Origin: Nakazawaea peltata
Taxonomy: Eukaryota > Ascomycota > Pichiomycetes > Alaninales > Pachysolenaceae
Length of the DNA stretch: 64,000 nt
Direction: 5' to 3'
Assembly: GCA_001599355.1 (NCBI GenBank)
Contig: BCGQ01000002.1
Coordinates: forward strand, 323,554 to 387,553
The notes under the pieces: model-generated
What the model saw: only the letters and a program-made list of their open reading frames with translations
Databases searched by the model: none
Told to the model about the DNA's origin: nothing
Part shown: piece by piece, positions 1 to 64,000 of the stretch
Layout of the letters: every line of letters starts with the position of its first letter
Numbering within the stretch: the first letter of the stretch is position 1
Translations under genes and position numbers: made by a program

Positions 1-857
1 TGAGGTTTCTTTGTCAATTCCAGTAATTTTGCAGCTGAACTATAGTTGTTTATAGTTGATGCTTTTCTTCTAAACAGAATTGGATCAAGTTCGATCTCCT
101 GAGGGGATTCTTTGGTCTCTTTCGATTTTTTCAATGGTTTATTGAATACTTCGAGGACACCTTCAATATCTGGGTCTACCGACTTCGTTTTGGTGCTAAA
201 GAGCTGCTTGAAAAGCAGCTCATTCTTCTGCAAATAATTGCACATTTGATATATTTTGGACACATTGCATTGTTGATGATTTGAGATATAATCACGGAAG
301 AAAGCCGACTTGAATTTCATCAAGAGACTTTCAATGACTTGTGGATTGATTCTAGAAGCATCAGATACGACATTAGTCAAGGCTGGAGATCTCAGGAAGA
401 AAGATTTAAGGTCGTTTAATTCTTTTGCAAAGTCCAGTTGAAAAGTGGATGGAGAAATGGGTGTGGAAGTGGAAGTGCTTGAGGAGTTTGGAGTATTTGA
501 AGCGCCAGAAGTAGCGCCAGAAGTAGCGCCAGAAGTAGCGCCAGAAGTACTGGCGGAGGCGCCGGAGGTGGCAGTTGACGCGGTCGATGGCGCGGTCCCT
601 GCCGTGGCAACTGATGAGCCAGTTGATACCTTGCCCGATCCATTACCCGATACCGTCCCAGTCTCAGCTCTCACTATCTTAGGCCTCTTCTTCATAGTAA
701 CCAAATCAATCTCATACTCAATATCCTCCTCCTTCTTAACAGATGCGTAATTTCTAACATTTAATGAGTGGAGACGAACCAGTAAACCAGCTGATTTCGA
801 TCCCCTGAATCCATCTCTCAACATTGAATACCTGCCAGGTACTCTCAATACCCTCAT
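1..857 (-). CDS. Probable mitochondrial protein, 5' part only (runs off left edge)
   Basis: An open frame on the minus strand runs from an ATG at 857 to the window edge without a stop, giving 285 codons. A second in-frame ATG lies at 824. The N-terminus (MRVLRVPGRYSMLRDGFRG) is rich in Arg and Ser with almost no acidic residues, as in mitochondrial presequences. It is followed by a Ser/Thr/Ala/Gly-rich linker containing four TSGA repeats encoded by a 12-bp tandem repeat, and then by a helical-looking region. I do not recognise the family. A mitochondrial RNA-processing or PPR-type factor is one possibility, but no diagnostic motif is visible. The gene is incomplete only because the window ends. 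Confidence 0.7.
   Translation of the reverse strand, partial: MRVLRVPGRYSMLRDGFRGSKSAGLLVRLHSLNVRNYASVKKEEDIEYEIDLVTMKKRPKIVRAETGTVSGNGSGKVSTGSSVATAGTAPSTASTATSGASASTSGATSGATSGATSGASNTPNSSSTSTSTPISPSTFQLDFAKELNDLKSFFLRSPALTNVVSDASRINPQVIESLLMKFKSAFFRDYISNHQQCNVSKIYQMCNYLQKNELLFKQLFSTKTKSVDPDIEGVLEVFNKPLKKSKETKESPQEIELDPILFRRKASTINNYSSAAKLLELTKKP
502..549. repeat. 12-bp tandem repeat inside a coding region
   Basis: Four consecutive copies of GCGCCAGAAGTA encode (on the minus strand) a repeated Thr-Ser-Gly-Ala linker in the partial gene at the left edge. The repeat keeps the reading frame, so copy-number change would alter linker length without breaking the protein. Confidence 0.9.
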
Positions 858-1128
858 TGTCAATTCTTTGCTGGATCTCGTATTTGCCACACCTTCCTCA
901 GATGATTTAACAGCTCGATCTTTATTAATCGTCGCTTAGTGAGAAAATATCTATTTACCGTAAATGGAAATTGGGAGTGCACGACAAAATTTAATCAGGT
1001 ACAGCATTAGATTGCCGTATTTGGACAGATTTGGACGAGGCGCACGACTTACGAGGAGGATACTAAATTGGGGGTAATTTATATTAAACCATTTATAAAA
1101 AGCATGAAAACAAAGTATTGAAGAACAA

Positions 1129-2802
1129 TTAGCTAGATTCAGATTGAGCATCGTGAACTGTTGGACTTACGGTCTTGTCCAAAGATTTTCTTTGAGTGAC
1201 ATGACCTTTGGTGTGATATTCCAGTTCAGCAATGGCTTCAACAGCCTCTTTGTAGTCCTCATCGACAGTGACAACTGGTCCTGTGTAATGCTTACGAGCA
1301 GAGAGTAACCACCAGCCACCTGCAAGGAAGAAGACGAATCCTAAAATGACAACAGTGTAGTTCATATCTTCTGGGGTGACAGGGATATAGTTAGGGAAGA
1401 CAAATACGATGGAGACAATGATAGTCCATAAGCAAGCGTAACCCATGACGAATTTGGAGAATCTTCCCATGGTGAATGGACCCTTCTTAACACCCATTTT
1501 CTCGGCATTGAAAAGGTATAATCCAATGACAATGATATAAGACCAGTCGGTAGCGATAGCACAGGCCGAGAAGATGGCATTCATAGCAATGGTAGAACCC
1601 AAGTTGATCAAAGAAATGATAGAGTTGATAGTAGCCAACAACCAGATGGCTCTCAATGGGTTGTTGGTGGTCTTGTTGATGACATTCAAGTTCTTGGAGT
1701 AAGGGAAGAAGTTGTCTCTAGCCAATGACCACATAGATCTAGAAGTGTAACACATGGCAACGGCACCACAGAACCAAATAATGACAAAGGTCAAGGATAA
1801 ATAAGCAGTGGCAGCAGTCTTACCCAAGACATCGTAGAACAATTGGACAATTGGTTGACCAGTTGGAGTGTTCAATAATTTCTCAATATCGTCACCCATG
1901 ACAATAGCAAAGACAACACACAAGATCCAACCCAAGACGGCAGTGGTGGTCAAAGCAGATGCAATAGCCAAAGGAACTTGTCTAGCAGCACCCTTGGATT
2001 CCTCGGAGATTCTACTGGTCAGATCATAACAGGTCATGACCCAAGAGACGTTCAAGAAACCGAACAAGAAAGCCCATCCGTCATCTCCCCAACCGGTGTT
2101 GTTGATGATCTCACCGAAAACGAAACCTCTGGTGTTGTATTTCTCACATTTGACCAACAAGTGGATGATCAAAGCGATGGTAGAACCAATGTTGACGAAA
2201 CAGTAAGTCTGGGTGATCGAAGCCAAGACGTAACTTGGCAAGGAATTCAAAGCAGCATGACTGATAACGATTAAGATGGTAACGGCAGTAGTATGACCTC
2301 TAGTTGGTACGTACTCGTAGTCGGTGTACATGGAAACGATGGCCAAAAGCAAAGTGGCAGCACCGAAATCAGTGGAAGCACACCCAGTAATGGCACCGAC
2401 CAAGAATAACCAACCGTCGACCCAACAGGTAATAGGAGCCCATTTCTTAGGTGTGACATGCTTGATGACATAGTACATACCACCGGAAGTTGGGAAAGCA
2501 GAAGTCAACTCGGCAACAGACCAAGCAATACAAAGACAACCAATAGCACCGACAAACCAACACCAAACACAAGCAGCTGGTCCTCCAGACCACATAGGGT
2601 ACATATATGTGATGGAGATGGTACCCATCAAACCTGAAATGGATAACAGGAAAGAGAAGGTAGACAAGAAGTTATAATCTCTCTTGAATTCTTGCTTATA
2701 TCCAAGTTGAGCCAAGTTGGCGGCATCCAAGTCAAGTGGGATACCTCCATTGGAAACTATCGGCTCTAATCCGCCAGATTTTTGCTTCTCCAAGTCGGAC
2801 AT
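1129..2802 (-). CDS. Amino acid/GABA/polyamine permease, UGA4 type
   Basis: This 557-residue protein is a membrane carrier of the APC superfamily, amino acid/choline transporter subfamily (UGA4, HNM1, BIO5, TPO5). About twelve hydrophobic segments lie between residues 45 and 510, flanked by hydrophilic cytoplasmic tails. The start of the membrane domain (AQLGYKQEFKRDYNFLSTFSF) and the tail (HYTGPVVTVDEDYKEAVEA) both match the UGA4 pattern, where a YHGP segment precedes an acidic DDYTEAV motif. The substrate could be GABA, a polyamine or another amino compound, and sequence alone does not decide. The ATG at 2802 is followed directly by the conserved cytoplasmic N-tail. Codon use looks like that of a well-expressed gene. 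Confidence 0.9.
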   Translation of the reverse strand: MSDLEKQKSGGLEPIVSNGGIPLDLDAANLAQLGYKQEFKRDYNFLSTFSFLLSISGLMGTISITYMYPMWSGGPAACVWCWFVGAIGCLCIAWSVAELTSAFPTSGGMYYVIKHVTPKKWAPITCWVDGWLFLVGAITGCASTDFGAATLLLAIVSMYTDYEYVPTRGHTTAVTILIVISHAALNSLPSYVLASITQTYCFVNIGSTIALIIHLLVKCEKYNTRGFVFGEIINNTGWGDDGWAFLFGFLNVSWVMTCYDLTSRISEESKGAARQVPLAIASALTTTAVLGWILCVVFAIVMGDDIEKLLNTPTGQPIVQLFYDVLGKTAATAYLSLTFVIIWFCGAVAMCYTSRSMWSLARDNFFPYSKNLNVINKTTNNPLRAIWLLATINSIISLINLGSTIAMNAIFSACAIATDWSYIIVIGLYLFNAEKMGVKKGPFTMGRFSKFVMGYACLWTIIVSIVFVFPNYIPVTPEDMNYTVVILGFVFFLAGGWWLLSARKHYTGPVVTVDEDYKEAVEAIAELEYHTKGHVTQRKSLDKTVSPTVHDAQSESS

Positions 2803-6425: not shown

Positions 6426-7520
6426 ATGAAGTTGTTAATTTTTGTGTTATTGTGTTTTGTAGGGCTTGTATGGGCCGAGGCCGACTATTACAAGATCCTT
6501 GGAGTCTCTAAGAACGCCGATGACAAAGAGATTAAGAAGGCATATAGGACATTAAGTAAGAAGTATCACCCTGATAAGAATCCTGGTGACGAGGAAGCTC
6601 ATGAGAAGTTCATTGAAGTGGGCGAACTGTATGATGTGTTGAGTGACGAAGAGAAGAGGTCGGTGTACGATCGTTATGGAGCCGATGCTGTTAAGAATGG
6701 AGGAGGTGGTGGCCAAGGTGGTCATGGAGATCCATTTGACATGTTTTTCGGTGGCGGTGGATTCCCACACGGAGGCCAACAGAGAAGGGGTAGGCCAAGG
6801 GGTCAAGACGTCAGTACAGAGATGAAGTTCACCTTGAAGGAATTCTACAATGGACTCTCTAGAGATTTCCAAGTGAGGTTGCAAGTTATTTGTAGTCATT
6901 GTCAAGGGTCTGGATCTGAGGATGGTGAGACACACACCTGTGACACATGTAATGGATCGGGAATGAGGATCACCAAGATGCAGATCCTGCCAGGAATGTT
7001 CCAGCAATTCCAAACAGCCTGTGATCACTGTGGAGGAAAAGGAAAAATCGTGACCCATTCTTGTAGGAAATGTGGTGGTGAAGGTGTATACCAGGACAAC
7101 AAGAAGAATCATATTGATATTGCACCAGGTACAGCTAGAGATCATGTCGAAGTCATACTAGGAGGAGCCGACGAGAGTCCAGATTGGGTCACAGGAGATT
7201 TAAAAATTAATGTTAGAGAAGATACTACTCGTGATAATTTGGGTTATGTTAGAATTGGTAACAATTTATACCGTAAGGAAGTGTTATCGTTGAAGGAAGC
7301 CCTCAAAGGTGGTTGGGAGAGGACAATTCCATTCTTGGATGAGTACGACAATACTATTGTTATCAAGCGTGGTGAGAACCAAGTAGTACAACCAGGTGAG
7401 GTTGAAAGGATAAGCGGTAAAGGTATGCCAATCTTAGGACATGATGATACTTACGGAGACTTGTTCATTGAATATCAAGTCATCTTACCCACTCAGGGCT
7501 CGTTAAAGGACGAGCTCTAA
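6426..7520 (+). CDS. SCJ1: Scj1, ER-lumenal DnaJ co-chaperone
   Basis: This 364-residue type I Hsp40 stimulates BiP (Kar2) ATPase in the ER lumen during folding. A signal peptide covers residues 1-17. The J domain follows (about 20-84) with the HPD motif in KKYHPDKNP. Then come a Gly/Phe-rich region (about 91-117), four CXXCXGXG zinc-binding repeats ([32 protein letters not shown]; about 156-225) and the substrate-binding C-terminal domain. The protein ends in KDEL, the ER retrieval signal, as in S. cerevisiae Scj1. CTG codons at residues 68 (GE-x-YDVLSD) and 188 (QI-x-PGM) occupy positions that are alanine in DnaJ proteins. Confidence 0.96.
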
Positions 7521-13264: not shown

Positions 13265-14599
13265 ATGCAAGCTCCTCCACCTATCGAAGTTAACAGCAGG
13301 GGTGTTGTCGAAAAGAAGCCAGAGAGGCCATACCAATGTCCTATTTGTGATAAGCTGTTTCACAGATTAGAGCACCAGACTCGTCATATCAGGACTCATA
13401 CAGGAGAAAAACCTCATGCCTGTACATTTGGGGGCTGTACCAAGAAGTTCTCCAGATCCGACGAGTTAACAAGACATTTAAGAATTCATACCAACCCTAC
13501 AGTTAGAAAGCCACGTTCCAAGAACAAGAAGAAGTTACAACAAGAACTTTCTGAGAAACAACAAGAAATGGAGATGCAAATGCACCAAGAGCTGCTGCAC
13601 CTGTTACTGCAACTGCAACAGTCCAAGTTCCAACAACCACCTCTGATCATGATCGGTCAAGGGCCTAATGTTCAATATGGTGCCCCAGTAGCATACGATG
13701 CTAATGGGAATGTGATTTACCCACAACCTGTTCCACAGTGTTTCATTCCATTCAACGATCAACAGCAACAACAGGCCATGATGGCACCTCAAAAATATTC
13801 CAAGATCAGACCAAGTTTAAATTCAACTACATCGATGTCAGATTTCCGCAGGGAATCACCTTTATCTTCGAAATCGAATTCAGCAACATCGTTACCATCT
13901 CTTATGTCACCTTCGTCATCATCGACCAGCATTTCCAACAGTTTCAATGGATTCAACGGAGGTAGTGCAAGTTCCACCTCTTTACAGCATCTGAAATTGT
14001 TAACTTCGTTGTCTTCTTTACAAAGAATGACTCCAATCAGACAGCTGTCAGCTGGTAGTAATAACAGTAAGATGTCATCAAGAAGTACATTAGTTTTAGA
14101 CCTTGAAAATCCAAGGAAGAAGTCTAGACCTAATTCACCAACTGGGTCTATGCCAAACTCACCTCCTCTGGTCAACTTTGAGAGACCAAAACTGGTATTT
14201 AACTTCTCAACTCCAAACGTTACTCCTCTTTCGACTCCATTACAATCTCCAACGCTAAGGCCAGTGTCGACAAGTACGACAAACATGCAATCGCTTCATA
14301 GCAATGGGAACAGTAATTCGAGTAGTAATTCGAGCAGTCTTAACAACAGTAATAGCAACAGTCATGTCTCGTTGCCTCCTTTGAGATCGATTGTGAGTGG
14401 AATCGAAGCCGTACAAAAAGATGACCGTTTCAAACTGTTGAACGGTCCGACTCTTCCACAATTACCAGATTTGGGTAAGATGGATAACCCATTGAAACGT
14501 AAGTCTAACATTGATTTGGTTAGTTTGAACCTGTCAGATGTGCACAACACGATTCCGTCGGCTTCAGCCAGCTTCCCATTTTCTGATGTCCGGAAATAG
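13265..14599 (+). CDS. MIG1: Mig1, glucose-repression C2H2 zinc-finger repressor
   Basis: The two N-terminal fingers (residues about 22-80) are diagnostic. They are [17 protein letters not shown] with the TGEKPHAC linker, then [18 protein letters not shown], nearly identical to Mig1/CreA. A basic [10 protein letters not shown] stretch follows, then Gln-rich and Ser/Asn-rich tracts typical of Mig1 regulatory regions, and a C-terminal leucine-rich segment ([12 protein letters not shown]) like the Mig1 effector domain. Length is 444 residues. The protein represses genes for alternative carbon sources and is controlled by Snf1 phosphorylation in relatives. Residue 31 (K-x-F in finger 1) is a CTG codon where Mig1 has Ala. 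The stop codon lies in a 15-bp tandem repeat. Confidence 0.95.
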
Positions 14600-15044: not shown

Positions 15045-18000
15045 ATGAGTAAACGTCGACAAGAGACAGTAGGCATCGGAGTTGCCTTAGGAAGTGATTC
15101 TGCTGCTCATAAGGGAGATCCCCTCCCAACCTCGATGCTCACACCAGAAACACCCGATTTAAATGACCTCCCCAATGGTTCAGGTGATCAAATCTTGAGT
15201 GAATTTACTCAACTGAGGAATGGTGAAGGGTCAAGGACCGAAAACGGCACTGAAAACGGTACGAATTTACCCTCGGAGCCCCCCAAGAAAAGACAAAGAA
15301 TCCAAATAGCACGTGACCTGACGGCCGGACCCGGATCCACATACCTTCCGGCTACGAGTGGGATCATTGAGAAGATCGAGCTTGCGAATTTCATGTGTCA
15401 TGATCATTTCGAGGTGGCGTTGGGCCCTCAGATCAACTTTATCATTGGGCAGAACGGTAGTGGGAAAAGTGCCGTTTTAACGGCGATCTCCGTGGGTCTT
15501 GGAGCCAAGCTGAACGAGACCAACAGAGGTTCAGCCGTCAAGCTGTTGATCAAGAGCGGATGTACCAGCTCCAGGATCACTATAGTGTTTCTGAACAAAG
15601 GGAAAGGTGCTTATAAGCCTGAAGTTTATGGAGAGAAGATCATTGTCCAGAGGATCTTGAAGGTGGAAGGAAGTAACAAATACTCGCTCCGGAGCGAGAA
15701 TGGAAGGCATGTGAGTGATAAGAAGGTGGAGTTGGATCTGATCCTTGGACATTTCGGGATCACCGTGAGTAATCCGATGCTGATTTTGACCCAAGATGCT
15801 GCTAAATCTTTCATTGCAACATCTTCGGATGAAGAGAAGTACAAATTCTTCATGGCTGGTACTAAAGCTGATGAGACGATCAAGAATTACCATGAGACAC
15901 AGGAGCAGCTTTCGCAGGTGACGGCTCGTCTTTCGGAATTGACGGTGAAACTCCGTGATTTGAAGAAGAAAGACTCGGAACTGCGGATTTTGTATGAGAA
16001 ATATCAAAGTCAAGATGAGTTGATGAAGATGAAGACTCTTTTCCAGGGGAAATACTTGTGGGTTCAAGTCCAAGAACGGGAGCAGGTTGTAGAGAAGGCC
16101 GAGAAAGGTATTGCCAAGTTTGAGCTGGAGATCTCCAGTGCGAAAGAGCATGTTCTGAGTACTGTAGAGCTTCGTAAACGTAAGGAAGAGGAGAAGGAGA
16201 GTATTACGGAGGAGTTGATCAAGTTTCTGAATGGACATGAGAGTAGAGAGGAGGAAGTTCAGCTGAAGATTGGTGAGGTGAAGGAGATGTCCAAAGTAGT
16301 GGATGATCTGAAGAATGAGGTGAGTTCTACAGAGAAAGAAGTTGCTTCTGATAGTCTGAAGATTGTTAAACTTGATGAGCGTATTAAGATCGAAGAGGTA
16401 CGTCTTTCTGAGATCAATGGAGGATCTGTAGAGCAGCTTCATGAGGAGAAAGCCCAACTTGAGCTGAAGGTTGAGGAATTGAATCTGAAGCTTGAGAAAC
16501 TCGAGAAGGATCGATGGGATTCTCGTGATCAAGCAGATGAAGAAGTGAGAGTAGTTCAAGGAGAATTGGAGCTGGAGTCTTCGGTCAAGAAGGAATTGGA
16601 GCTTCAATTGAAGAGTATTCAGAGATCTCAATCTGGCAACTCCACGACTTCGAGACTTGATGCTTTCGGGAAGAATATGGCTCTGATTTTAAGAGATATC
16701 GAAAGAGATACAAAGTTCCGTTCTAAACCTATTGGACCGCTTGGAAAGTATGTGAATATCAAGCTGAACCAAGATCAATGGAGTTCGATCATCGATCTGC
16801 ATCTTCAGCGGATCTGGAGCTCGTTTGTAGTGGATAATCAGCAAGATTTCCAACGTCTTACTCTGCTTTTTAGACGATACAATTACAAAGGTACTATAAC
16901 GGTGCGGAAATATGAGACTTTTGACTTTGAATCTGGGTCAGTATCGTCTCAGTTCACTAGACTTATGGATGTACTTGAATTTGACGACCCTTTCGTCCAA
17001 TGTTTGCTCGTGGACATGTCTAAAATCAATAGTATTGTGCTTGAAGAGCGTCGTGAGGTTGCTGAGAGGATCGTCAGAAGTGGACCTGCCAATCTTAGGA
17101 GTGTTCTTGTGCCTTATGATGCTCGTACGGGTAATAATATCCGGGCTAATCGGTTTGGTGGTTTACAAATCGATGTTGTGACGTACTCCAATGGACCTGA
17201 GAAGATCGGGTCTCGTTCTACGGTGGAAGTCAGAGCTAAAGGTATTGGGGAGAGAGTGATACAAAGTCAGAGGAAGATGGACGTGTTGAAGGACCGTCTC
17301 CGGAAGCTTAGAGACGAAGGTAGACTGGCAGAACTGCTGGTGGTGAGGGAAGTGAACAAAACTAAGAAACAAATCTCAGAAACCGAGAGAGAGATCGGGG
17401 AGATCTCCAATAAATTAGACGACACGGGAATTAATACAAGGTTGGACTCGTTGAGAGAGGAACGGCAGCTGATTAGCCGTGAATTGGAGTTCAAGAAGAT
17501 CCTGGTGGAGCAATGTCGTGCTAGTTTGAAAGAGCAACATGAAAAACTCCAACTGTTACATAGTGTTTATAAAGAAGTAGTAAAGAAACTGAGGGAGGAG
17601 AGGAGTCAAGAGGAGAGTATGAAGAAGCAGATGAGTCATCTTGAGACCGAGATCACTAAGGCCATATCTGATGTTAACCATTATGAGCAATCGATTCAAA
17701 AGAGACAGTCTCTTATTGAGAAATTGGAGGAGAGGATCAGCGAAGAGCAGGCTGCGATCTCTGAGCTTGAGGACAATGCTAAATGGTTGTGTTCTCGTGA
17801 AGAGGCAGGATTGAAACCTGAAGATACTTTGGAGTCGATCGAGGTTGATAAAATCCGAATTGAAGCCGAACTGGAGGAATTCGAACGTAGTTTAGGAGTC
17901 TCCCGAGATGATATTGCCGATCAATTCCATAAAGCTCGTAGTAATTATAATGAACTGAAGGAGAGATTTAAGAGTATAGTGGAGTTGAAAGAGCAACTTC

Positions 18001-18458
18001 AGCGTTCGTTGGAGGACCGGTTACTTTCGTTTGAGAGAATGAGGATCGACATCTGCAACAGAGTGAACGATTCGTTCCAGAAATCTTTGTCACTTCGTCA
18101 TTTCACCGGTAAAATTGTGTTTGACTTTGAAAAACTGAAATTGACTATGCTCGTTTCGACTAAGAGGGGAGATAAATTGAGAAACATCGAGACTTTTAGC
18201 GGTGGTGAGAAGTCCTTCTCTCAGATCTCTTTGTTATTGCTGATATGGGACTTTATGAATACCAAAATTAGGGGTTTAGATGAGTTTGATGTATTTATGG
18301 ATCAGGTTAATAGGACGTTATCACTTCGGTTGATTTTACAAAAGATTAAACATTCACAATCACAGACGATATTTATTACACCGTTAGATATACTGGGTGT
18401 TGATGGAGTTGATATTGATAATGTGCATATTCATCGGATTGCTGATCCGAAGAGGTGA
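15045..18458 (+). CDS. SMC6: Smc6, ATPase of the SMC5/6 complex
   Basis: This 1137-residue protein has the SMC layout: N-terminal ATPase lobe, long coiled coil, hinge (about 545-700), coiled coil, C-terminal lobe. Smc6-specific sequence surrounds the Walker A motif GQNGSGKS (135-142), followed by AVLTAISVGLGAK and ETNRG. The signature motif FSGGEKSFSQ lies near residue 1055 and Walker B LDEFDVFMDQVNR just after. The complex acts in nuclear DNA repair, replication-fork stability and chromosome segregation. CTG codons at residues 156 (GAK-x-NETNRG) and 1066 (LLL-x-IW) match Ala of S. cerevisiae Smc6. CTG is frequent in the coiled coil, so standard translation overstates its leucine content. Confidence 0.96.
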   Translation: MSKRRQETVGIGVALGSDSAAHKGDPLPTSMLTPETPDLNDLPNGSGDQILSEFTQLRNGEGSRTENGTENGTNLPSEPPKKRQRIQIARDLTAGPGSTYLPATSGIIEKIELANFMCHDHFEVALGPQINFIIGQNGSGKSAVLTAISVGLGAKLNETNRGSAVKLLIKSGCTSSRITIVFLNKGKGAYKPEVYGEKIIVQRILKVEGSNKYSLRSENGRHVSDKKVELDLILGHFGITVSNPMLILTQDAAKSFIATSSDEEKYKFFMAGTKADETIKNYHETQEQLSQVTARLSELTVKLRDLKKKDSELRILYEKYQSQDELMKMKTLFQGKYLWVQVQEREQVVEKAEKGIAKFELEISSAKEHVLSTVELRKRKEEEKESITEELIKFLNGHESREEEVQLKIGEVKEMSKVVDDLKNEVSSTEKEVASDSLKIVKLDERIKIEEVRLSEINGGSVEQLHEEKAQLELKVEELNLKLEKLEKDRWDSRDQADEEVRVVQGELELESSVKKELELQLKSIQRSQSGNSTTSRLDAFGKNMALILRDIERDTKFRSKPIGPLGKYVNIKLNQDQWSSIIDLHLQRIWSSFVVDNQQDFQRLTLLFRRYNYKGTITVRKYETFDFESGSVSSQFTRLMDVLEFDDPFVQCLLVDMSKINSIVLEERREVAERIVRSGPANLRSVLVPYDARTGNNIRANRFGGLQIDVVTYSNGPEKIGSRSTVEVRAKGIGERVIQSQRKMDVLKDRLRKLRDEGRLAELLVVREVNKTKKQISETEREIGEISNKLDDTGINTRLDSLREERQLISRELEFKKILVEQCRASLKEQHEKLQLLHSVYKEVVKKLREERSQEESMKKQMSHLETEITKAISDVNHYEQSIQKRQSLIEKLEERISEEQAAISELEDNAKWLCSREEAGLKPEDTLESIEVDKIRIEAELEEFERSLGVSRDDIADQFHKARSNYNELKERFKSIVELKEQLQRSLEDRLLSFERMRIDICNRVNDSFQKSLSLRHFTGKIVFDFEKLKLTMLVSTKRGDKLRNIETFSGGEKSFSQISLLLLIWDFMNTKIRGLDEFDVFMDQVNRTLSLRLILQKIKHSQSQTIFITPLDILGVDGVDIDNVHIHRIADPKR

Positions 18459-18917: not shown

Positions 18918-21626
18918 TTATTTAGTCACAAAACTAGCCATTTTATCCTTCAAGATAACTTTGACGATATTTTTACCCCCCAAATATTTATCTCCATTCG
19001 AAGTCCCCATAAGTTGCTGGACAAATTGGTTCTCATCACTATACAACGATTTATCAGCTGCGAAAACGAACCTGAAACGTCCATTCACCATGATACTGTA
19101 GTTTTGAAGACTACTTTCGAATCGAGGTTGAATTTCAGGCCATGAACGAGTCAAGATCGACTCCCATTTGAGTCCCAGAAGCTCACAATATCTCTCGTAA
19201 CTTTCCTCCAGAACAGCAGGAGCAACAGGTGACATGATAGTGAGTAATTTGAGGTAGCTGTCATTAATGAGGTCGAAATTCAGTTCACCAGATCCACAGC
19301 CATCAATAAGAGCATTAGTTAATTTCATATAATCGGAAATCACCGTATTCAATGAAATACTTGAACTGAACGACTCTTCAATCGATGAAATATACTCTTG
19401 AACAGCATTATGTAATTCAATTTCCAGTTCATTATACTCCAATTGAGGGTTATTTGTAGATTTCGAACCATCTTTCTCTCCCATCTTAGTACCCAATGTC
19501 TCTCCAAGTTGATAAACCTTTCTTAACCATCTTTGAACTCCTACGATCTTGAGTTCGTCCCAATCAAGAACATCATTAACAGGAGCCTGGAATAAGATAT
19601 GAGCTCTAGTAGCATCGGCTCCAAATTGAGCTATACAATCAGCAGGATCTACCCCATTATATTTAGATTTAGACATCTTCTCACTAGTAACAACCAGCTC
19701 CTTCCCAGTACGAGTGACTACATACCGTTGAGAAGAGGTATCCAAATGGTATTCGTCAGGTTTGAGGAACCGACCGTTATCAGGATCAGACAATGTACGA
19801 CCATGAACCATACCCTGGGTGACCAACTTCTTGAAAGGTTCCCCAGCAGTCTCAACGGAGCCTGGTAAATGACCAATCTTGGTGAGGAATTTGGTGATGA
19901 AACGAGCATAGAGTAAATGCAAAATAGCATGCTCTACACCTCCTATATACATATCTACAGGTAAGGAGATATCCTTCTTGAAAGGCTGGTCTGGGTTGTG
20001 AGGGTCTAAGAACCTCAGGAAGTACCATGACGAGTCCATGAAGGTGTCCATAGTATCGGTTTCACGTTTCAGAGGCTCTCCACAAGAAGGACATTTACAG
20101 TTGACGAAACTTTCGAGTTTCAGTAATGGGGATCCACCTTTCTTATCGATCAGATGCCCCAATTGAGGCAACATTACAGGCAATTCATGGTCTGGGACTG
20201 GGACTGTTCCACAAGAGTCACAGTATACGATTGGAATTGGGGCTCCCCAGTATCTTTGTCTACTGATTAACCAGTCTCTTATACGGAATTGGGTGGTCTT
20301 AGTACCGAGTCCCGACAGTTCAAGATCTTTAATGATCAGTTTAGTGGCTTGTTTGACAGATAATCCCGAATATTGTTCGGCATTTCCATTCATGACTCCA
20401 GATTTACCTAAATATGGACCTTTTTGATCGTCTTTCGAGTCACCTTTCTTTGAGATCACCTTTATAACCGGGTCAGAAGGTCTGTTAAGTCTCCAGAATG
20501 CATAGTCACGCTCATCATGACCAGGACATCCCATTACAGATCCATGACCATAAGATCCAATCACATATGGAGCTACAAATACAGGCACTTGAGAGTCTGG
20601 TTTTAATGGGTTAATTACGGTGAGTCCTTGCAATTGATACCCTTCTTTTGAAGGTTCTTCTTGAGGAGAGGATACTTTAGATACCGAGTCGACGAACAGA
20701 GCCAATTTCTGGTCGGTTTGCTTCAATATTTCTACAATTGGGTGGGTGGTGGAAAGAGCTACATACTGGACAGCTTTAATGGTGTCTGGTCTTGTGGTGA
20801 AGGTACGGATTTCGGTGAAAGGAAGATCGATATTGGAGTCAGTAACGAGGGAAAATCCTAAATCTACACCATGACTTTCCCCAATCCAATTCTTCTGCAT
20901 CACTTTCACCTTAGAAGGCCACTGGTCCAACTTATCCAAATCATGATTTAACTCATGAGCATAGTCGGTGATTTTGAGGAACCACTGCGACAACATACGT
21001 TTCTCTACAAGGGCCCCCGATCTCCAGCTACGTCCCTCATCATCTACTTGTTCATTTGCCAAGACAGTCTGATCGACAGGGTCCCAATTGATCTCAGATT
21101 TCAGCTTGTAAGCCAAACCATGATCATACAATAAAGTGAAGATTTTTTGAGTGTGTTTGTAGTAGTCGGGCATACAAGTGGTGAGCTCACGATCCCAGTC
21201 GAAGTCCAGTAACATGAGCTGGATCTGCTGTTTCATGTTTTCAATGTTGGAGAGTGTCCATTCAGCAGGATCGATGCCTCTTTCAATAGCGGCATTTTCC
21301 GCCGGTAATCCAAACAGATCCCATCCCATCAGATGGACAACGTCGTACCCTTTGAGTTTATGGAATCTCAGGATCGAGTCACTGATGGTGTAGACACGGA
21401 CATGACCCATATGTAACAGTCCAGAAGGGTATGGGAACATAGGAAGGATGTATTTTTGGTCACCATTGGAGGAATCTTTTGGGTTGATCCGTTGGGGGTT
21501 TTGGGTGATGGATTTCCATTTGGAGAGCCATTTCTCGTCTAATTTTTTACCCAATTCAAGGGCCAGAAACGAACCGCTGGTGGAATGGAACGATCTGAGT
21601 TGAGAAACCAAGTGAATTTGTCTCAT
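18918..21626 (-). CDS. NAM2: Nam2, mitochondrial leucyl-tRNA synthetase
   Basis: The start is the ATG at 21626, giving a typical matrix presequence ([20 protein letters not shown]) and 902 residues, as in yeast Nam2 (894). Upstream codons in the same frame lack an ATG. Class I signatures are present: the HIGH region PYPSG-x-LHMGHVR near residue 70, the GWD[14 protein letters not shown] block near 105, the CP1 editing domain in the middle, and [12 protein letters not shown] near residue 650. The enzyme charges mitochondrial tRNA-Leu; the S. cerevisiae protein also aids group I intron splicing. CTG codons at residues 70, 99, 104 and 140 fall at sites suited to Ala. WDAFG and ML-A-(N/D)FDWDRE are the clearest. 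Confidence 0.96.
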
Positions 21627-31556: not shown

Positions 31557-31760
31557 GGCGGTGATTTCACGGGTTTTGGTGTGATCTGGTGAGGTTTTCC
31601 AATCGAGGATTTGATTTCGTGTTGAATTGGAAAAAAAAATATGCGATTTAAAGTTTGGCAGTGCGCGGGAACGAGGAATATGTGGGCAGAAAACACGATT
31701 CGGTGACACTGATACTGACACCATAAAGACAAGACTATTCCGATAAGACTAACAGTGATA

Positions 31761-45790: not shown

Positions 45791-45810
45791 CGTCCAAATC
45801 TTATCTCCAC

Positions 45811-51042: not shown

Positions 51043-51265
51043 TGTAGTATTAAACTTTAATTCTAAAGCATAACTATACATAATCACGCGCATTAGTGAC
51101 AGAATACGGCATGTGACCCCTCAAACCCCCCTTTTGTGTTAAAATTAAACAAGTATCTATGGTTACTGATGTATCTTTGCGACGCAAGAACAGCAAATGT
51201 TTAATTAAATGTCATCTCAAAACTATTAACAAGCACGAGAAAAGAGGGTAAAATCGATTCCCACC

Positions 51266-51298
51266 ACTTCGGCACTGACATTTAAATGTCGCTGAAGT
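51266..51298. repeat. 33-bp imperfect palindrome
   Basis: The core GACATTTAAATGTC (51277-51290) is a perfect 14-bp palindrome. Flanks ACTTCGGC and GCTGAAGT pair with one mismatch and a three-base bulge. It is suited to a cruciform, hairpin RNA or dimeric site. Confidence 0.8.
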
Positions 51299-51609
51299 TA
51301 TTCCGAATGTACTCGAAATCATCAATTATGCTTGACAGATTCGGTGTCACTATACACAAAAGTACTAGAAATGAAGGGCTCACATTAGCCGAAGCATCTT
51401 TAATTAAGCCGATACATTTTAGAGGAAAATACGGAACTAAACTAAATCAATTAATGCAATTATAACGTGCCACAACTTCAACATGACAACCTTTATCTGA
51501 GCCGAAGAGCACTAAAGATCATGTATATAATAAACCTTGCATAGCTAACCCAATGATAAGAGACAAAAAAGAACAGTAAAAAGAAACAAAAAGAGGCCAA
51601 TCCTTGAAA

Positions 51610-53927: not shown

Positions 53928-56633
53928 ATGTCCGCCACAGTTCAAGTCGCAGACCACGAGAGAATCTCGTCGATGGCCTCGTCCAAGTCCACCTATTCCA
54001 GATCTTCGGTCTACCAAACCAATGGCAAACCTTTAAGTGAGGAGGCCATCTACAAAGCCAAATTGAAATATGGAGTGTACAATAAGCCTGGGGCCCCAAC
54101 TGTTGGTGTCCAGAACAGCGCCTCCGACTCGGCTGCTTTATTGGCTGCTCAGACTGACTTGTCGGTCCAACCATATAGAAGAAACTTGTCTTCCGAGGCT
54201 GCTACCGCCGCTTTAGTGGCCAAGACTGACTCGGCTCCAAAGGCCTGGAAAAGAGAGAACTTTGCCCCAGATGCCGAGTACGCTGCCATCAGTGCTAAAT
54301 CTCAAAAATTCCCATTCCAACTGAGTGATGAAGCCGAAGAATTGGGCTCCGAATACGCCAGTTCCGACGCTGCTGCTTCTTCCGTCTTGAAGAAGAAATC
54401 CTCCACTATCGCCAGAGAAGCTTTAGAAGATTTGTATGCCTTTGACGATATCAGAAATGGTACTGCTACTTTCACACACTTCGATGGGTCCGTTTTGAAC
54501 TCTGCTCTGGAATCCAAGGCTCATCAAGTCGCCTATCCTTCGGTCCGTGCTAAGGGAAGCTCCATGAAGATGAACATTGGTGACGTTCATAAACAATCCT
54601 CCTTGAATGCCTCCAAAACTATGACTTCAAGATCTAATCCTTCTTACAATGCTGCCAGATCAGGAATTGAGACTCAAAATAAGTACAATTACGGTGGAGG
54701 TGAGGTCAATATCTCCAATATCACTCTGGCTGCTACTTTGAGTGCTAAGAAATCCATTCAAAGCAGATTGAACGACGATTCCAAGGACTACCGTACCGGA
54801 ATTCCAACCGCTTCCGACTACACCAACAGATCTTTGGCCTCTTCTGGTGCTGGTCTGTCTTTAAGTAAAGGTGGGTTCAGTGACTACGCAGCTGTTGAGC
54901 GTCTGAGTTTGAAGAACAACACTTTGGTCTCCAAGAGTGTCTATGCCATTGCTGCTGCCAATGCTGACCGTACTTTGACCATGTTGGACAACCAAACTGC
55001 CACCAAGAACTTGATGAACAACCGTGAGGTCAACCTTAAGGCCCTTCAAATCCTGCAAGAGAACTTGAAGAAACGTAATGCCAATGCCGGTAAAGTCAAC
55101 CTCGGTGGAGGTTTGATGATGGACCCTAAAGAGTTGGAGACCATGGCTGCTTCGATCGTCAAGCCTGTTTTGACCGAGATCGACGCTAAGGCTGTTGCTC
55201 AAAGAAAATCCGATGCTGATCTGGCCAAGTACAAGACCCAACAGAAGATGAAACGTGAGGAGTACCGTATGGAGCAAAAGAAGCTGAAGCTGGCTGCTGT
55301 TAAACTGAAAGAAGACGAGAAGAAGGCCCGTAAACTGAAATTGGAAGAAGAGAAGGGTTCCGAAAAGTCCAAGCAAGATGAGTTGATCAAGAAACGTAAA
55401 GGTGAGGTCAAAGACCAAGAGAAGGTCTTGGAAGACAAGACTGCCGAGGAAGATGGAGAGAAGGAAGCTCTTTTGACCGAGAAAGTGGAGCTGCAAAAAG
55501 TAATTGACGATGCTGCTGCTCTGAAGAAGGCCGAGCGTGACCTGGAACTGTCTCTGCTTCAAGCTGAGAAGGACGAGGAAGTTGCTCCTATTTTGGAAGA
55601 GTTCAAGAAAGAGACTCTGCTGTTGGATGAGCTGATTGCCAAGAGAGAGGCTGCTCAGAAGTTGGCTCTGGAGCATGGTGAACGTGCTACTAAGGCCGAG
55701 GAAGAATTGACTTCGTTGAAATCCAAATTACTGGAGACCGAGGCTTCTATTGAAGCTTTGAAGGAGGAATTAGTTGGTCACAAGGAGACTTCAGCTAAGG
55801 AATCCAGCGAGGCCGAGTTGAAGCTGAAGGAAGCCGATGCTGAATTGACTTCTAAACTTCTGAAGGAGCAAGAATTCGTCACCAACAACGAGAAATTGTT
55901 GGCCGAGAAGGCTGAATTGCAATCCAAGAGAGCTGCCGCTTTGGTATCGTTACAAGAAGCTAAGAAACTGGCCGTTTCTCACGAATTGGCTGTCAGAGAC
56001 GCTTTACCAGAACATTTACAGAAGGATGTCAATGAAGAAATCAGCGACGAGGAAGAGATCGATGAAGATCAGTTCAATACCACCGATGAGGAACCTGAAC
56101 TGGAAGAAGAAGAACCAGTTGTTCAACCAAAGGATTCTTCCGCTCCAACCAAGTCTGTTATTGAGCTGGGAGCCGAGTCTACTTTAGGTAAGACCATTCC
56201 TAAAGTCACTTCTACTGCTACCGGATCCGCTAAGAAAGTACAAAAGAAAGCTACCGGGCCAGTCAAGAAGACCGTCGAATCTGGTAAGAAATCGTCTTGG
56301 AAATCCAAGGTCAAGGGATTCTTAGGAGGAAAGAGTGCTCCAGTTGAGAAGAAGACTACTCTTCCAGCTAAGAAAACCACCACCAAGGAAAAGAAGGTTG
56401 TTGAAGAACTGGCTCTGGCCCCTCTGGCCCTGACTGCTCTGGTCACCACCGAGAAATCCGAACCAGAAGAACCAAAAAATGAGTTGAAACAAACCTTCTC
56501 AGGTTTCAGCCAAGGTTCGATCCCAGACGAGGACGCCAAGAAGAAAGAAATCTCCACCGAAGACGCCAGTGATTCCATCTTAGAGAACAAAACCGAGGCC
56601 TCTAAAACCGGAGTCTTCAAAGAGGACATCTAG
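53928..56633 (+). CDS. EIS1: Eis1, eisosome protein
   Basis: The 901-residue product (ATG at 53928) has the Eis1 N-terminal pattern: LSEEAIYKAKLKYGVYNKPG, then repeated blocks with SAALLAAQTDLSVQPYRR and TAALVAKTDSAPKAWKRE. Repeated ALQT/AAAT-type helices follow, and a long charged coiled coil spans about 410-680. The C-terminus is acidic, then Lys-rich. Eis1 belongs to plasma-membrane eisosomes under the MCC domain, with Pil1 and Lsp1. The coiled coil uses CTG often, so under the Ala code several apparent heptad leucines become alanine. Strong codon bias suggests high expression. Confidence 0.93.
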   Translation: MSATVQVADHERISSMASSKSTYSRSSVYQTNGKPLSEEAIYKAKLKYGVYNKPGAPTVGVQNSASDSAALLAAQTDLSVQPYRRNLSSEAATAALVAKTDSAPKAWKRENFAPDAEYAAISAKSQKFPFQLSDEAEELGSEYASSDAAASSVLKKKSSTIAREALEDLYAFDDIRNGTATFTHFDGSVLNSALESKAHQVAYPSVRAKGSSMKMNIGDVHKQSSLNASKTMTSRSNPSYNAARSGIETQNKYNYGGGEVNISNITLAATLSAKKSIQSRLNDDSKDYRTGIPTASDYTNRSLASSGAGLSLSKGGFSDYAAVERLSLKNNTLVSKSVYAIAAANADRTLTMLDNQTATKNLMNNREVNLKALQILQENLKKRNANAGKVNLGGGLMMDPKELETMAASIVKPVLTEIDAKAVAQRKSDADLAKYKTQQKMKREEYRMEQKKLKLAAVKLKEDEKKARKLKLEEEKGSEKSKQDELIKKRKGEVKDQEKVLEDKTAEEDGEKEALLTEKVELQKVIDDAAALKKAERDLELSLLQAEKDEEVAPILEEFKKETLLLDELIAKREAAQKLALEHGERATKAEEELTSLKSKLLETEASIEALKEELVGHKETSAKESSEAELKLKEADAELTSKLLKEQEFVTNNEKLLAEKAELQSKRAAALVSLQEAKKLAVSHELAVRDALPEHLQKDVNEEISDEEEIDEDQFNTTDEEPELEEEEPVVQPKDSSAPTKSVIELGAESTLGKTIPKVTSTATGSAKKVQKKATGPVKKTVESGKKSSWKSKVKGFLGGKSAPVEKKTTLPAKKTTTKEKKVVEELALAPLALTALVTTEKSEPEEPKNELKQTFSGFSQGSIPDEDAKKKEISTEDASDSILENKTEASKTGVFKEDI

Positions 56634-56860: not shown

Positions 56861-57361
56861 TTAATATTGTCCCCGTATTCTTCTTGCCAATTGCATGTCT
56901 TTTTGCATGATGGTGACTCTTTTCAGATGAAGGGCACATAAATTGGTGTCCTCGAATAAGTTCACCAAAAAAGTTTCGCTCAGTTCCTGTAACAGCTGAA
57001 TCAGAACGCTTTGCCATCTTAGCCCGTATTGCGCAGAAGGCATACAATCGATCAGGATCTCCCTCACTAACCGGGCAAAGGGTAACTTCCTCAACAATAA
57101 GTCGGTCGATTTTTGGAACCGACGGATCTCTCTTAACAGTAACACTCCTGGTTTATATTTTCTTCTTTGCCTGACGGGCACTGGATCTCCTGGCTGATTT
57201 CTTTGAAGTCCTGTGTGTGAGCTTGACCCTAGACTCCTTCCAGGCACAGATTTAGTTCCACTTACTCCTCCTGGTCGGGTCCCACTGGGTCTCTTACCAC
57301 TAGGTCTATTACCTTTACCAACACCGGGTCTAGACCCTGCTTGGGCTGTATTTCTTGCCAT
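56861..57361 (-). CDS. CSE4: Cse4, centromeric histone H3 variant (CENP-A)
   Basis: This 166-residue histone has a Gly/Ser/Pro/Arg tail (1-65) and a histone fold (about 69-166): [53 protein letters not shown] and [18 protein letters not shown]. Trp in RWQS, the extra residues in loop 1 and the long tail distinguish CENP-A from canonical H3. It marks centromeric nucleosomes and seeds the kinetochore. Residues 75, 120, 123, 127 and 146 are CTG codons. All five align with alanines conserved in H3/CENP-A, the strongest evidence here for CUG=Ala. Two Mcm1-like sites lie upstream. Confidence 0.96.
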
Positions 57362-57879: not shown

Positions 57880-58929
57880 CTAATTCTGTTGGCTCAGCTT
57901 AAAGTTGAAATATTGAGCGAAAGTGTCTCCGACAGATTTCTCCAAATCGATCAAAGTCAAGCCTGAGTTTTCAACCACCTCAGAACAATCGAATTTATCG
58001 GGGCTGGTTAAAGAAGCTTTAACTGTAGCCTCATCTACGGAGGCAATCTTCCCCTTTAATTCTGGGTATTTCTCGTTCAAGAAATTGATCATCCAGGCAT
58101 CCGAATAAACACCTTGAGCAATAAATAATCTTTGGCCAGCCAATTTTGGATTCTTCAACAGCAACACATGGAGCTGGGCGACATCTCTAACATCAGCGAA
58201 AAGTCCATTTGGAGGTCCAGGTCTAGGTGGCTGTCTGGGCTTCGACTCCAGCATCATTTTCATGAGTAAACTACTAATTGGCAATTTCTTCAACCCCCAT
58301 GATTTCTCAAAAGCTTGGGGACCAATAATGTGAGGAGGAACAACGGTAGAGAACTCGAAGTCTGGCTTTTCTTCTTTAACAAATTCCCAAGCAGCTTTCT
58401 CAGCATAAGTCTTGGAAACAAAGTAAGCAAGCATATCAGTTTTGTTGGCATCAGAATACTCAATAGAATTCCAATCTTTGGCTGTGTAGACATGGTCCTT
58501 ATCAGCCAGACTGAAATTTCTAATTGCAACTGCTGAAGAAGTGAAGACAACATTCTTGACTTGAGGACCATAATTTTTAATGGCCTTTAACAAGTTTATA
58601 TTACCATTGATAGCAGGTTTGACAAAAAAAGCCTCCCTGTCATCTCCTGCAACAAACGTAAATGGAGAAGCGGTATGTACAACATAGACAACTTCAGGGT
58701 GGCTCTTCAATACCTCATCGTAAGCACCCTCAACACCCATCTCAGCTACAACTTCATAAGACACATCCAGTTCAGGGTAAACTTCCTTGAAATTGGAAAC
58801 CATGGTATCCCCTTTCTCTGAAGATCTCACGACTCCAATTACCTTGAAGTTGTCCTTCAACAAAAAGTTGACAATGTGTGAACCCACATAACCGGAGGCA
58901 CCTGTAAGTAAGACAGTTTCTTTTGACAT
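57880..58929 (-). CDS. GRE2: Gre2-type NADPH-dependent ketoreductase (extended SDR)
   Basis: This 349-residue extended short-chain dehydrogenase has the nucleotide fold VLLTGASGYVGSHIVNFLLK at the N-terminus and VRSSEKGD. The serine in VVFTSSAVAI and YFVSKTYAEKAAWEF (Tyr-x3-Lys) form the catalytic centre, and a substrate lobe contains FSTVVPPHIIGPQ. The family includes S. cerevisiae Gre2 (methylglyoxal/isovaleraldehyde reductase, 342 aa) and many paralogues in other yeasts. It is cytosolic and often stress-induced. The physiological carbonyl substrate cannot be read from sequence. Confidence 0.9.
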   Translation of the reverse strand: MSKETVLLTGASGYVGSHIVNFLLKDNFKVIGVVRSSEKGDTMVSNFKEVYPELDVSYEVVAEMGVEGAYDEVLKSHPEVVYVVHTASPFTFVAGDDREAFFVKPAINGNINLLKAIKNYGPQVKNVVFTSSAVAIRNFSLADKDHVYTAKDWNSIEYSDANKTDMLAYFVSKTYAEKAAWEFVKEEKPDFEFSTVVPPHIIGPQAFEKSWGLKKLPISSLLMKMMLESKPRQPPRPGPPNGLFADVRDVAQLHVLLLKNPKLAGQRLFIAQGVYSDAWMINFLNEKYPELKGKIASVDEATVKASLTSPDKFDCSEVVENSGLTLIDLEKSVGDTFAQYFNFKLSQQN

Positions 58930-59377: not shown

Positions 59378-59384
59378 CTACAAA
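59318..59384. repeat. 29-30-bp direct repeat overlapping the ARP9 stop
   Basis: Copies at 59318-59346 and 59355-59384 share TTAGCATTTTATCAATT and CACTACAAA, 37 bp apart. The second copy contains the ARP9 stop codon and part of its final codons. Confidence 0.85.
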
Positions 59385-60850
59385 GCAACGTCCCAGATTC
59401 CAACTGGACCATTGGCCAAGTACGACTCCTTGTTCAAATACAAGGTCTCACCGTAGTTAGTACCATGACCCGAGCCGAAGATTTGTTTTGTCAAAAGCTG
59501 GGCTCCCAAAAATTGAAGATCTTCTAAATTGTTCAGCTTCTTCCAGACAGGAAAATATTCTGGGAACTTCAGGTATTTGATGAGCTTTGGGACTTGGTGG
59601 ACGTTGTAAATCTCATTGTTTGATCCCAATAACTGGTTGTTCAAGTTATTTCCACCGGCTACGTTGATAGAGGCTGGACCTGTCTCGTTTCTGAACAGAG
59701 ATTCCAGAGAACCTTTACTGGATTGCAGTAAAGCACTCTTGATGACGACTAAATGATCCTGTAATAATTGAACCAATAACAGTTCTTTGAAACCTTTGAT
59801 TTTACTAGTACCCCCTACAACGATGATATTCTCAAATGCCTCTTGTTTCTTGTGGAAATCAGGTATTTGCTCAGTAACCAACCGAACATGGTACGAGATC
59901 TGTTCAATCAACTCTTTAGTACCATGGAATCTTTCTTTTCCAACCTCTACGGTAGTTCCATCTCTATCTACGAAAGAATTAGTCTCCAACTCTGAGTTTG
60001 GCTTGTTTTGGCCCTTCCCATCTGAGCTGCCCAGCAGCGACGACTTGGTCTGTTTTAAAATTTCGTCCGTGTCTTTACCACTTGTGACAATCAGAGCCAC
60101 GTCAATAACTCCATCATCTTTGGTAGAGTCATCTTGCATCAAGACATCCAATCCGAAGAACGAATTTTTAGCATCTTCCTCACTCAATACTTCGTAAATG
60201 CCAGACAATTTCAAATCTTCAATTTGATTAGGAGTTAACTGAGGCAATGCCTTCTGTAATTCCTGATTAATCTTCCTTCCTCCTAATGGGACCGATATGT
60301 TCAAGTGTTTCAAGTTCTGGAAGTCTGTGATCAGTGAAATGTCGGTCTTTTCGTAACCAATGTCGATAACAAGAGACGTCTGTAAAGATCCATGAGCAAA
60401 GGAGCTGGATAAACTTGGAGATATTATGTTGAAACCTCCAACTTCCAATGACTCAAAGACAAAATTGGTGATGAACTCACATTGGGTCTTGGAAAATGTA
60501 AATGGAGCGACCAAAGACATCGCAACAGACGAAGAACTGAAGTATTCCACGTCTTTGGTGACACTGTCGAAAATTAATTTCAAAAAGTAGTTGAACAGGT
60601 CCAGGTCGACGATCTTTCCCTTGCGAATCGGGTATATAACATTAGAATCCAGGATCGAATCCGAATAGAATTCACCAGTGGCCGCCGTATACGGTCCAAA
60701 CTTCCCTGTCTCTGGGTCCTTGAACACCCTAGTTGGAATCTTGTAGGTTGGCAATTGCAACGACTCTTGAGCGTTGAGTCCGAAGCTACAAAGCGTGTTT
60801 TCAGACCCAGCCTGTACAATAAAGTAGAAATCTTCTTTGAATGGCGCCAT
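59378..60850 (-). CDS. ARP9: Arp9, actin-related protein of SWI/SNF and RSC
   Basis: The 490-residue product is a divergent actin fold: VQAGSENTLCSFG at the first phosphate loop position, SLVAPFTFSKTQCEFITNFVFE, TSLVIDIGYEKTDISLI (phosphate 2), IIVVGGTSKIKGFKELL and FPVWKKLNNLEDLQFLGAQLLTKQIFG near the end. These match yeast Arp9 (467 aa) more than actin or Arp7. With Arp7 it binds the HSA helix of the Snf2/Sth1 ATPase in nuclear chromatin remodellers. The insertion around 230-290 is hydrophilic. The ATG at 60850 is the family start. Confidence 0.9.
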   Translation of the reverse strand: MAPFKEDFYFIVQAGSENTLCSFGLNAQESLQLPTYKIPTRVFKDPETGKFGPYTAATGEFYSDSILDSNVIYPIRKGKIVDLDLFNYFLKLIFDSVTKDVEYFSSSSVAMSLVAPFTFSKTQCEFITNFVFESLEVGGFNIISPSLSSSFAHGSLQTSLVIDIGYEKTDISLITDFQNLKHLNISVPLGGRKINQELQKALPQLTPNQIEDLKLSGIYEVLSEEDAKNSFFGLDVLMQDDSTKDDGVIDVALIVTSGKDTDEILKQTKSSLLGSSDGKGQNKPNSELETNSFVDRDGTTVEVGKERFHGTKELIEQISYHVRLVTEQIPDFHKKQEAFENIIVVGGTSKIKGFKELLLVQLLQDHLVVIKSALLQSSKGSLESLFRNETGPASINVAGGNNLNNQLLGSNNEIYNVHQVPKLIKYLKFPEYFPVWKKLNNLEDLQFLGAQLLTKQIFGSGHGTNYGETLYLNKESYLANGPVGIWDVAL

Positions 60851-62994: not shown

Positions 62995-63020
62995 TATTTT
63001 TATATATTACATACACATCA

Positions 63021-63728
63021 TTAATCTACATTTCCTATAACAAGTGTATTCTTCTCCAGTTCCAACTCTTTTAAACGAGCCTTCTCCTCTTCCAATTCCT
63101 TCAAAACTTTAGTGGTAGCTAGCTGTAATCTGTCGATCTCATCTTGTTCCAATTGTCTAGAGAATGGATTCGATTTTGTGGATTTCACAGGAAGTAACAG
63201 ACGAGGCACCGATGTCAACACCTCAAACATCTTGTCAGTAGGTTCATTGAATACCAACTCATCATAAAATATACTCTCCACAAGTTTGTTATTATTTAAC
63301 ATCTCATCTTTCATATTTCCATTGCCAGAAATGGCCCCAATACCACTACCAGGGAACAGCTGATAAGGATGTAATCTCAAATGGTGGAATATGCTGATAT
63401 TCTTCTCGCCACTTTCGGTGACAAAGAAGATCTTGATATTGATTTCAAATTCACCCCAACCTGTCTCTGTGACTTCGAATGGAGGAGCCTCGATCGACCT
63501 TGTCAGATTCGGATATGTGTCATGCAACTTGAATACCACTTTTTTAATCATATACGAAAGATCCAGCCCAGTAGGATCCCTCACAAACACGGTCCAATTA
63601 TGAGTATGATCAGGATTCACGTCTGGAGGACGGATAGCGCCGATGGGTGTCAGAGAGTTTCCATAAATGATGGGGCGTGTTATCGAAAGCCCTTTCACTC
63701 TTCTGCTATTTGTTGATGGAGGAGCCAT
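63021..63728 (-). CDS. YAF9: Yaf9, YEATS-domain subunit of SWR1 and NuA4
   Basis: This 235-residue protein (yeast 226) has the YEATS domain at about 12-150: KGLSITRPIIYGNSLTP, HTHNWTVFVRDPTG, IKKVVFKLHDTYPNLTRSIEAPPFEVTETGWGEFEI and ISIFHHLRLHPY. The aromatic pocket binds acylated lysines of histone H3. A C-terminal coiled coil (KVLKELEEEKARLKELELEKN) mediates complex assembly. It acts in H2A.Z deposition and H4 acetylation. The ATG at 63728 is the first in frame. Confidence 0.95.
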   Translation of the reverse strand: MAPPSTNSRRVKGLSITRPIIYGNSLTPIGAIRPPDVNPDHTHNWTVFVRDPTGLDLSYMIKKVVFKLHDTYPNLTRSIEAPPFEVTETGWGEFEINIKIFFVTESGEKNISIFHHLRLHPYQLFPGSGIGAISGNGNMKDEMLNNNKLVESIFYDELVFNEPTDKMFEVLTSVPRLLLPVKSTKSNPFSRQLEQDEIDRLQLATTKVLKELEEEKARLKELELEKNTLVIGNVD

Positions 63729-64000
63729 GTTTGACTTGTGTTGCAGCTGTGTAGTCCTTTCACCTGAACTGTCTCTATTTGAAGAGAGTTTGAAGGTTTC
63801 GATTTGAGCGGTGCTGAGCCGGTGTGATTGTGTGAATGTGCACGACCTTTACTCCTTTTCCCTTTTTGGACTTTGTGACAATATACACTACCATCAACAT
63901 GTGACGGCCTGGCCAAACTGCATTTGCAAACAAAAGAGTTGGATGGGTTGAGGAACATACAGAGCACCAAACTGATAATGACTTTAAAGACTATTTACAT
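63729..64000. other. YAF9 upstream region to window end
   Basis: 272 bp of promoter-like sequence. I see no supportable gene or repeat before the window ends. Confidence 0.5.

Follow-up and report, generated by a model that had tools for sequence, protein, structure and literature searches.

As of 2018, the only sense codon known to have changed its meaning in the nuclear genomes of eukaryotes was CUG, and these changes were confined to three clades of yeasts (PMC5951914). In the CUG-Ser1 and CUG-Ser2 clades (Serinales and Ascoideales) the codon is read as serine (NCBI table 12). The third clade, comprising Pachysolen, Nakazawaea and Peterozyma, reads it as alanine by means of a tRNA-Ala that acquired a CAG anticodon by mutation, and alanyl-tRNA synthetase (AlaRS) ignores the anticodon of its substrate (PMC5951914; PMC11415595). 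In the recoded clades, CUG is described as relatively rare and as lying mostly off well-conserved sites (PMC5951914), and for Pachysolen tannophilus highly conserved leucine or serine positions are described as free of CUG (PMC4986446). The three genera of the alanine clade make up the single family, Pachysolenaceae, of the order Alaninales, and the reading of CUG as alanine is an already known phenomenon with its own translation table (NCBI table 26). This code was reportedly first described in 2016, in papers in Genome Research and PNAS.

Here, we describe a 64-kb stretch of contig BCGQ01000002.1 (the whole of it is referred to as the window), for which a first-pass annotation, made from the sequence alone, had proposed that CTG codons specify alanine (code 26). 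We show that the residues found at the CTG sites fit an alanine codon and not a leucine or serine codon. The window is almost certainly nuclear DNA of a budding yeast reading CUG as alanine (NCBI table 26), and most likely comes from a member of the Pachysolenaceae, order Alaninales. Its content of guanine and cytosine (GC, 41.8%) comes near the value for Nakazawaea ambrosiae (42.3%; PMC10106607 Table 2), a weak clue that proves nothing.

Residues and domain scores at CTG sites

The window holds 38 open reading frames (ORFs) of at least 90 codons with little mutual overlap, containing 272 CTG among 14,851 codons, stop codons counted. Genes were named after their Pfam and PDB relatives, while Mig1, Scj1 and Nam2 are names taken over from the first-pass annotation, which match only to the level of the family. 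Ten of the proteins were searched against the PDB with CTG translated as leucine, a choice adverse to alanine that turns any alignment bias towards leucine, and residues were tallied from the single best PDB relative of each protein. The 112 CTG codons of these ten proteins divide into 89 in aligned columns, 8 opposite gaps and 15 outside the alignments, the latter including Smc6 residues 1066 and 1117.

The 89 aligned columns contain 24 Ala, 7 each of Ser and Glu, 6 each of Lys and Pro, 5 each of Leu, Thr and Cys, and various others in the last 24. Alanine is therefore the commonest residue opposite CTG, neither leucine nor serine being dominant, and it occurs there in nine of the ten proteins. 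As controls from the same alignments, alanine codons face alanine in 62 of 171 columns, serine codons face serine in 86 of 312, and the other leucine codons face leucine in 190 of 369. The latter act as leucine just as in yeasts using the standard code, but the window differs from such yeasts in that CTG faces leucine in only 5 of 89 columns (Fisher p = 1.3e-17 against the other leucine codons). Where at least 4 of 10 neighbours are identical, CTG faces alanine in 17 of 45 columns, leucine in one and serine in four, next to 41 alanines in 97 columns for GCN codons. The column profile of CTG is that of an alanine codon. The companion claim of the first-pass annotation, that conserved leucines are written with other codons, holds for 190 of the 195 columns in which the window has a CTN or TTR codon and the relative has leucine.

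These counts were put to a likelihood test of 20 candidate meanings, whose emission tables were derived from the remaining codons of the same alignments and smoothed with BLOSUM62. For CTG, alanine is the best of the 20, with serine 25.5 bits, threonine 56.5 bits and leucine 153.8 bits behind; the proposed reading by code 26 is thus upheld, and the Pfam scores given below agree with it. The distance to serine sets the window apart from the CUG-Ser1 and CUG-Ser2 clades, which have the same codon reassigned. With BLOSUM62 alone, serine falls 25.1 bits and leucine 90.0 bits below alanine, and alanine came first in 4980 of 5000 bootstrap replicates when genes were resampled and in 4909 of 5000 when sites were. 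Apart from CTG, 52 codons have 15 or more columns; with each left out in turn, the standard meaning was recovered for 51 of them, the sole exception being TCA, a near tie in which glutamine exceeded serine by 0.4 bit. The remaining eight sense codons have too few columns for this test (CTA has two, both leucine). No second reassigned codon appeared among the 52 tested, and TTA, TTG, CTT and CTC are read as leucine. The window therefore resembles table 26 in both respects: CUG acts as alanine and the other testable codons are standard.

Thirty ORFs were further compared by Pfam score under tables 26 (Ala), 1 (Leu) and 12 (Ser), with one family counted per domain and overlapping and secondary families excluded. 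Among the excluded is a secondary AA_permease match with leucine on top (68.4 bits as Ala, 69.8 as Leu and 68.8 as Ser); ORFs 7576, 24873 and 26235, which have no Pfam family, and two ORFs scanned under table 26 only (at 3 and 51610) are likewise outside the resulting table of 38 domains. For Smc6, separate scores of the two heads replace the full-length scores, the N-terminal head being represented by AAA_23 and the C-terminal one by SMC_N. Alanine exceeds leucine by 116.6 bits in total, scoring higher in 33 domains, the same in 3 and lower in 2 (by 0.2 and 1.0). Its lead over serine is 42.3 bits, with higher scores in 21 domains, ties in 3 and lower scores in 14.

The most telling gene for the meaning of CTG is CSE4, encoding the centromeric histone Cse4/CENP-A (56861..57361, minus strand). 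It has six CTG codons, one more than the five noted in the first-pass annotation, at residues 75, 103, 120, 123, 127 and 146. The claim that the family has alanine there is borne out at all six sites in the PDB alignment with histone H3.3, and the centromeric histone Cnp1 (9lrv) has A, S, A, C, A and A at the same sites. The Histone domain scores 125.8 bits with alanine, 111.2 with leucine and 114.8 with serine, so that this domain alone gives alanine 14.6 bits over leucine and 11.0 over serine.

Usage and surroundings of CTG

Codon usage and homology-free statistics were obtained from 32 genes, six short ORFs, which also had no Pfam scan, being omitted. CTG makes up 259 of the 14,088 codons of these genes (18.4 per 1000) and 26.1% of the alanine codons. 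Among alanine-codon columns whose relative has alanine, its share is 24 of 86 (27.9%), and alanine is conserved at CTG about as at GCN codons (24/89 against 62/171), with no clear difference (p = 0.16). Within this locus, CUG resembles a normal alanine codon, conserved sites included. The window differs in this from the published account of the recoded clades (PMC5951914), since its CTG is abundant and stands at conserved alanine sites. No per-species figures for CUG usage in the alanine clade were found in the literature searched, some of it accessible as excerpts.

The codon CTA is almost unused, with 22 of 1207 non-CTG leucine codons and a relative synonymous codon usage of 0.09. According to PMC6701816, avoidance of CTA is linked with the recoding of CUG in both CUG-Ser clades, a likeness that the window shares; that survey excluded CUG-Ala genomes. 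Carrying this link over to the CUG-Ala clade is our own extension, under which the scarcity of CTA here may likewise go with the recoding of CUG.

The sequence around CTG sites was less informative. CTG frequency, taken per gene or per 60-codon stretch, did not track the frequency of alanine, leucine or serine. In the coiled coil of Smc6, CTG is off the leucine heptad phase (hydrophobic partners 21/108 versus 82/242, p = 0.007), and its helical phase is not separable from that of alanine (p = 0.32); the phase ratio of 0.68 lies nearer to serine (0.52), lysine and glutamate than to alanine (1.13). Around the 259 CTG sites, Lys, Glu, Gln, Ala and Leu exceed expectation, while Gly, Ser, Tyr, Cys and Trp fall below it, as if many CTG sites lay on exposed helices. 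A classifier built on neighbour composition was dropped, having ranked the correct amino acid at the top for just 3 of 51 codons; its ranking for CTG had glutamate and lysine first, leucine fourth and alanine sixth. No inference on the code was drawn from the codon-pair context of CTG.

Other readings of CUG and the expected tRNA

Several results weigh against reading CUG as alanine. In the 14 of the 38 Pfam domains mentioned above, serine scores 0.1 to 2.0 bits above alanine, and without the Histone domain of Cse4 the lead of alanine over serine shrinks to 31.3 bits. Full-length Smc6 (15045..18458, plus strand) favours leucine over alanine, with 55.9 bits as Ala, 74.6 as Leu and 43.0 as Ser for SMC_N, and 62.8, 69.7 and 69.7 for AAA_23. 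The surroundings of CTG are more hydrophilic than those of GCN sites (mean -0.61 versus -0.35, p = 1.7e-5) and indistinguishable in hydropathy from those of the other leucine codons (p = 0.14), so that hydropathy alone would give no argument for alanine; it also differs from that around serine sites. Finally, no tRNA was detected in the window by ARAGORN (bacterial code, and standard code with introns) or by Rfam at gathering thresholds.

The leucine preference of full-length Smc6 was gone once its two heads were scored separately, when alanine exceeded leucine in each comparison (SMC_N 59.3 versus 54.8 and 36.2 versus 30.9; AAA_23 76.5 versus 74.2). The full-length score therefore probably reflects the influence of the extended coiled coil. 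In the N-terminal head, serine is slightly above alanine (SMC_N 60.4 versus 59.3; AAA_23 78.2 versus 76.5), a further point on the side of serine.

The window reveals the meaning of CUG and not the mechanism behind it. Going by published work, a tRNA-Ala whose anticodon has mutated to CAG would be charged by AlaRS, a change made possible because this enzyme does not read the anticodon. The ancestral tRNA-Leu(CAG) would have been lost, and leucine would then be encoded by TTR, CTT, CTC and, rarely, CTA.

Of the other accounts, a second change of CUG to alanine, in a yeast outside the Pachysolenaceae, is very unlikely. It is much more likely that the window stems from a CUG-Ala species whose CUG has grown into an ordinary alanine codon, abundant and in use at conserved sites, as the window itself indicates, and no test made here argues against membership in the CUG-Ala (table 26) group.

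A serine meaning of CUG, like that of the CUG-Ser1 and CUG-Ser2 clades, is more improbable still. Serine is the second-best meaning in the likelihood test and edges ahead in the 14 domains above, but its deficit of 25.5 bits in that test is joined by one of 42.3 bits over the 38 Pfam domains, of which the Histone domain contributes 11.0 bits and the L17 domain of Mrpl8 5.5 bits. Furthermore, CTG columns hold 7 serines to 24 alanines, whereas true serine codons face 86 serines and 30 alanines in 312 columns. Serine is nonetheless excluded less strongly than leucine.

There is just as little to recommend an ambiguous CUG, decoded as alanine with an appreciable share of leucine or serine. Ambiguity of this codon does exist in Candida albicans and Ascoidea asiatica (PMC8629427). 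In the window, however, CTG columns show no clear excess over GCN columns of either leucine (5/89 versus 7/171) or serine (7/89 versus 19/171), and CTG is in use at conserved alanine sites; column counts of this kind are blind to low-level ambiguity. In P. tannophilus, the decoding is more than 99% alanine, and an earlier estimate of 10% leucine is called mistaken, both according to PMC8645108.

The reading of CUG as unchanged leucine, with the alanine pattern a product of selective reading, is ruled out: the five leucine columns, full-length Smc6 and the leucine-like hydropathy speak for it, but the 5/89 against 190/369 columns refute it, it trails alanine by 153.8 bits even in alignments built with CTG as leucine, and the Smc6 coiled coil has CTG off the leucine phase.

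Genes of the window and meaning of the recoding

The first-pass annotation had rested on CTG codons at named positions, said to fall where the family has alanine. The observation of these codons is confirmed: CTG stands at Scj1 68 and 188, Mig1 31, Smc6 156 and 1066, Nam2 104 and 140, Tsc10 25 and Mrpl8 34, and also in Csr1, where only the numbering needs correction (residue 461 is 517 in the longest ORF, and 461 when counted from Met57). PDB relatives have the expected alanine at Smc6 156, Nam2 104, Csr1 517 and Tsc10 25. For Mrpl8 34, it is present in chain L of 6ywe but replaced by cysteine in the yeast L8 protein, and at Nam2 140 the claim is not confirmed, the leucyl-tRNA synthetase of 6q89 having phenylalanine in that column. 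Smc6 1066 lies outside the compared part of the Smc6 alignment. Scj1 and Mig1, which were outside the PDB comparison, were judged by Pfam scores: Scj1 188 gives no signal (DnaJ_C 72.9, 72.8 and 72.8 bits as Ala, Leu and Ser), and Mig1 31 prefers alanine to leucine, with serine 0.4 bit above alanine.

Among the PDB-aligned genes, SMC6 has 33 CTG codons, 27 of them aligned, with alanine at 156, 313, 809 and 820. NAM2, a leucyl-tRNA synthetase of mitochondrial type (18918..21626, minus strand), has 19, 18 aligned, with alanine at 104, 310, 430, 502 and 519. CSR1, encoding a Sec14-like protein (29718..31724, minus), has 13, six aligned, with alanine at 423 and 517 (HKAPWIF), and TSC10, for 3-ketodihydrosphingosine reductase (31761..32651, plus), has seven, six aligned, with alanine at 25 and 67. 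The three CTG codons of MRPL8 (bL17m; 33396..34022, plus) face no alanine in the best relative, residue 34 being alanine in 6ywe; its L17 domain scores 107.1 bits as Ala, 96.5 as Leu and 101.6 as Ser. ARP9 (59378..60850, minus; 13 CTG, eight aligned) has alanine at 85, 357 and 427, YAF9 (YEATS; 63021..63728, minus; six CTG, five aligned) at 26, and a GRE2-like reductase gene (57880..58929, minus; five CTG, three aligned) at 257. The gene for eIF3e (34432..35763, minus) has seven CTG codons, with alanine at 91 and 324 in the PDB alignment. S. cerevisiae is not known to have this subunit. The gene is intact here, and its best PDB match is 6w2s at 330 bits.

Other CTG-bearing genes were compared by Pfam score. 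The SCJ1-like gene (6426..7520, plus) has CTG at residues 68 and 188 and a DnaJ domain scoring 101.3 bits as Ala, 97.3 as Leu and 97.6 as Ser. In the MIG1-like zinc finger gene (13265..14599, plus; 13 CTG), residue 31 lies in the first finger (zf-C2H2 40.8 as Ala, 37.2 as Leu, 41.2 as Ser). Residues 110-117 of its product are encoded with five CTG in eight codons, a CTG-rich run adjoining glutamines, so that a simple repeat accounts for part of the gene's CTG total. The respective scores as Ala, Leu and Ser are 254.1, 247.4 and 253.1 bits for ATP10 (41959..42873, minus; seven CTG), 94.9, 92.8 and 93.0 for EIS1, encoding eisosome protein 1 (53928..56633, plus; 31 CTG), and 250.0, 242.4 and 252.0 for a mannosyltransferase (22978..24603, plus; nine CTG).

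Two further features of the window were noted. Positions 10565-11761 encode a member of the purine nucleoside permease (NUP) family at full length (PF06516, 426.7 bits), with an N-terminus that by eye resembles a signal peptide. A region of about 3 kb (48521-51609) has no ATG-started ORF of at least 90 codons; it lies upstream of a minus-strand gene for a rhodanese-domain protein (45811-47856), and the 4-kb step at 48001-52000 has the lowest GC content of the window (38.8%). It may represent a centromere or an extended stretch of regulatory sequence.

Under a standard-code annotation, each CTG of these genes is mistranslated. Genes of N. ambrosiae were predicted by AUGUSTUS with S. cerevisiae as reference (PMC10106607), and the main text of that paper contains none of the terms 'codon', 'CUG' or 'genetic code'; the predicted proteins of this species may therefore carry leucine at CUG sites. 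With so few nuclear sense-codon changes known, the correct translation of one more locus is of value, and the use of CUG for alanine at conserved sites is relevant to the question of how completely a codon is taken up after its reassignment.

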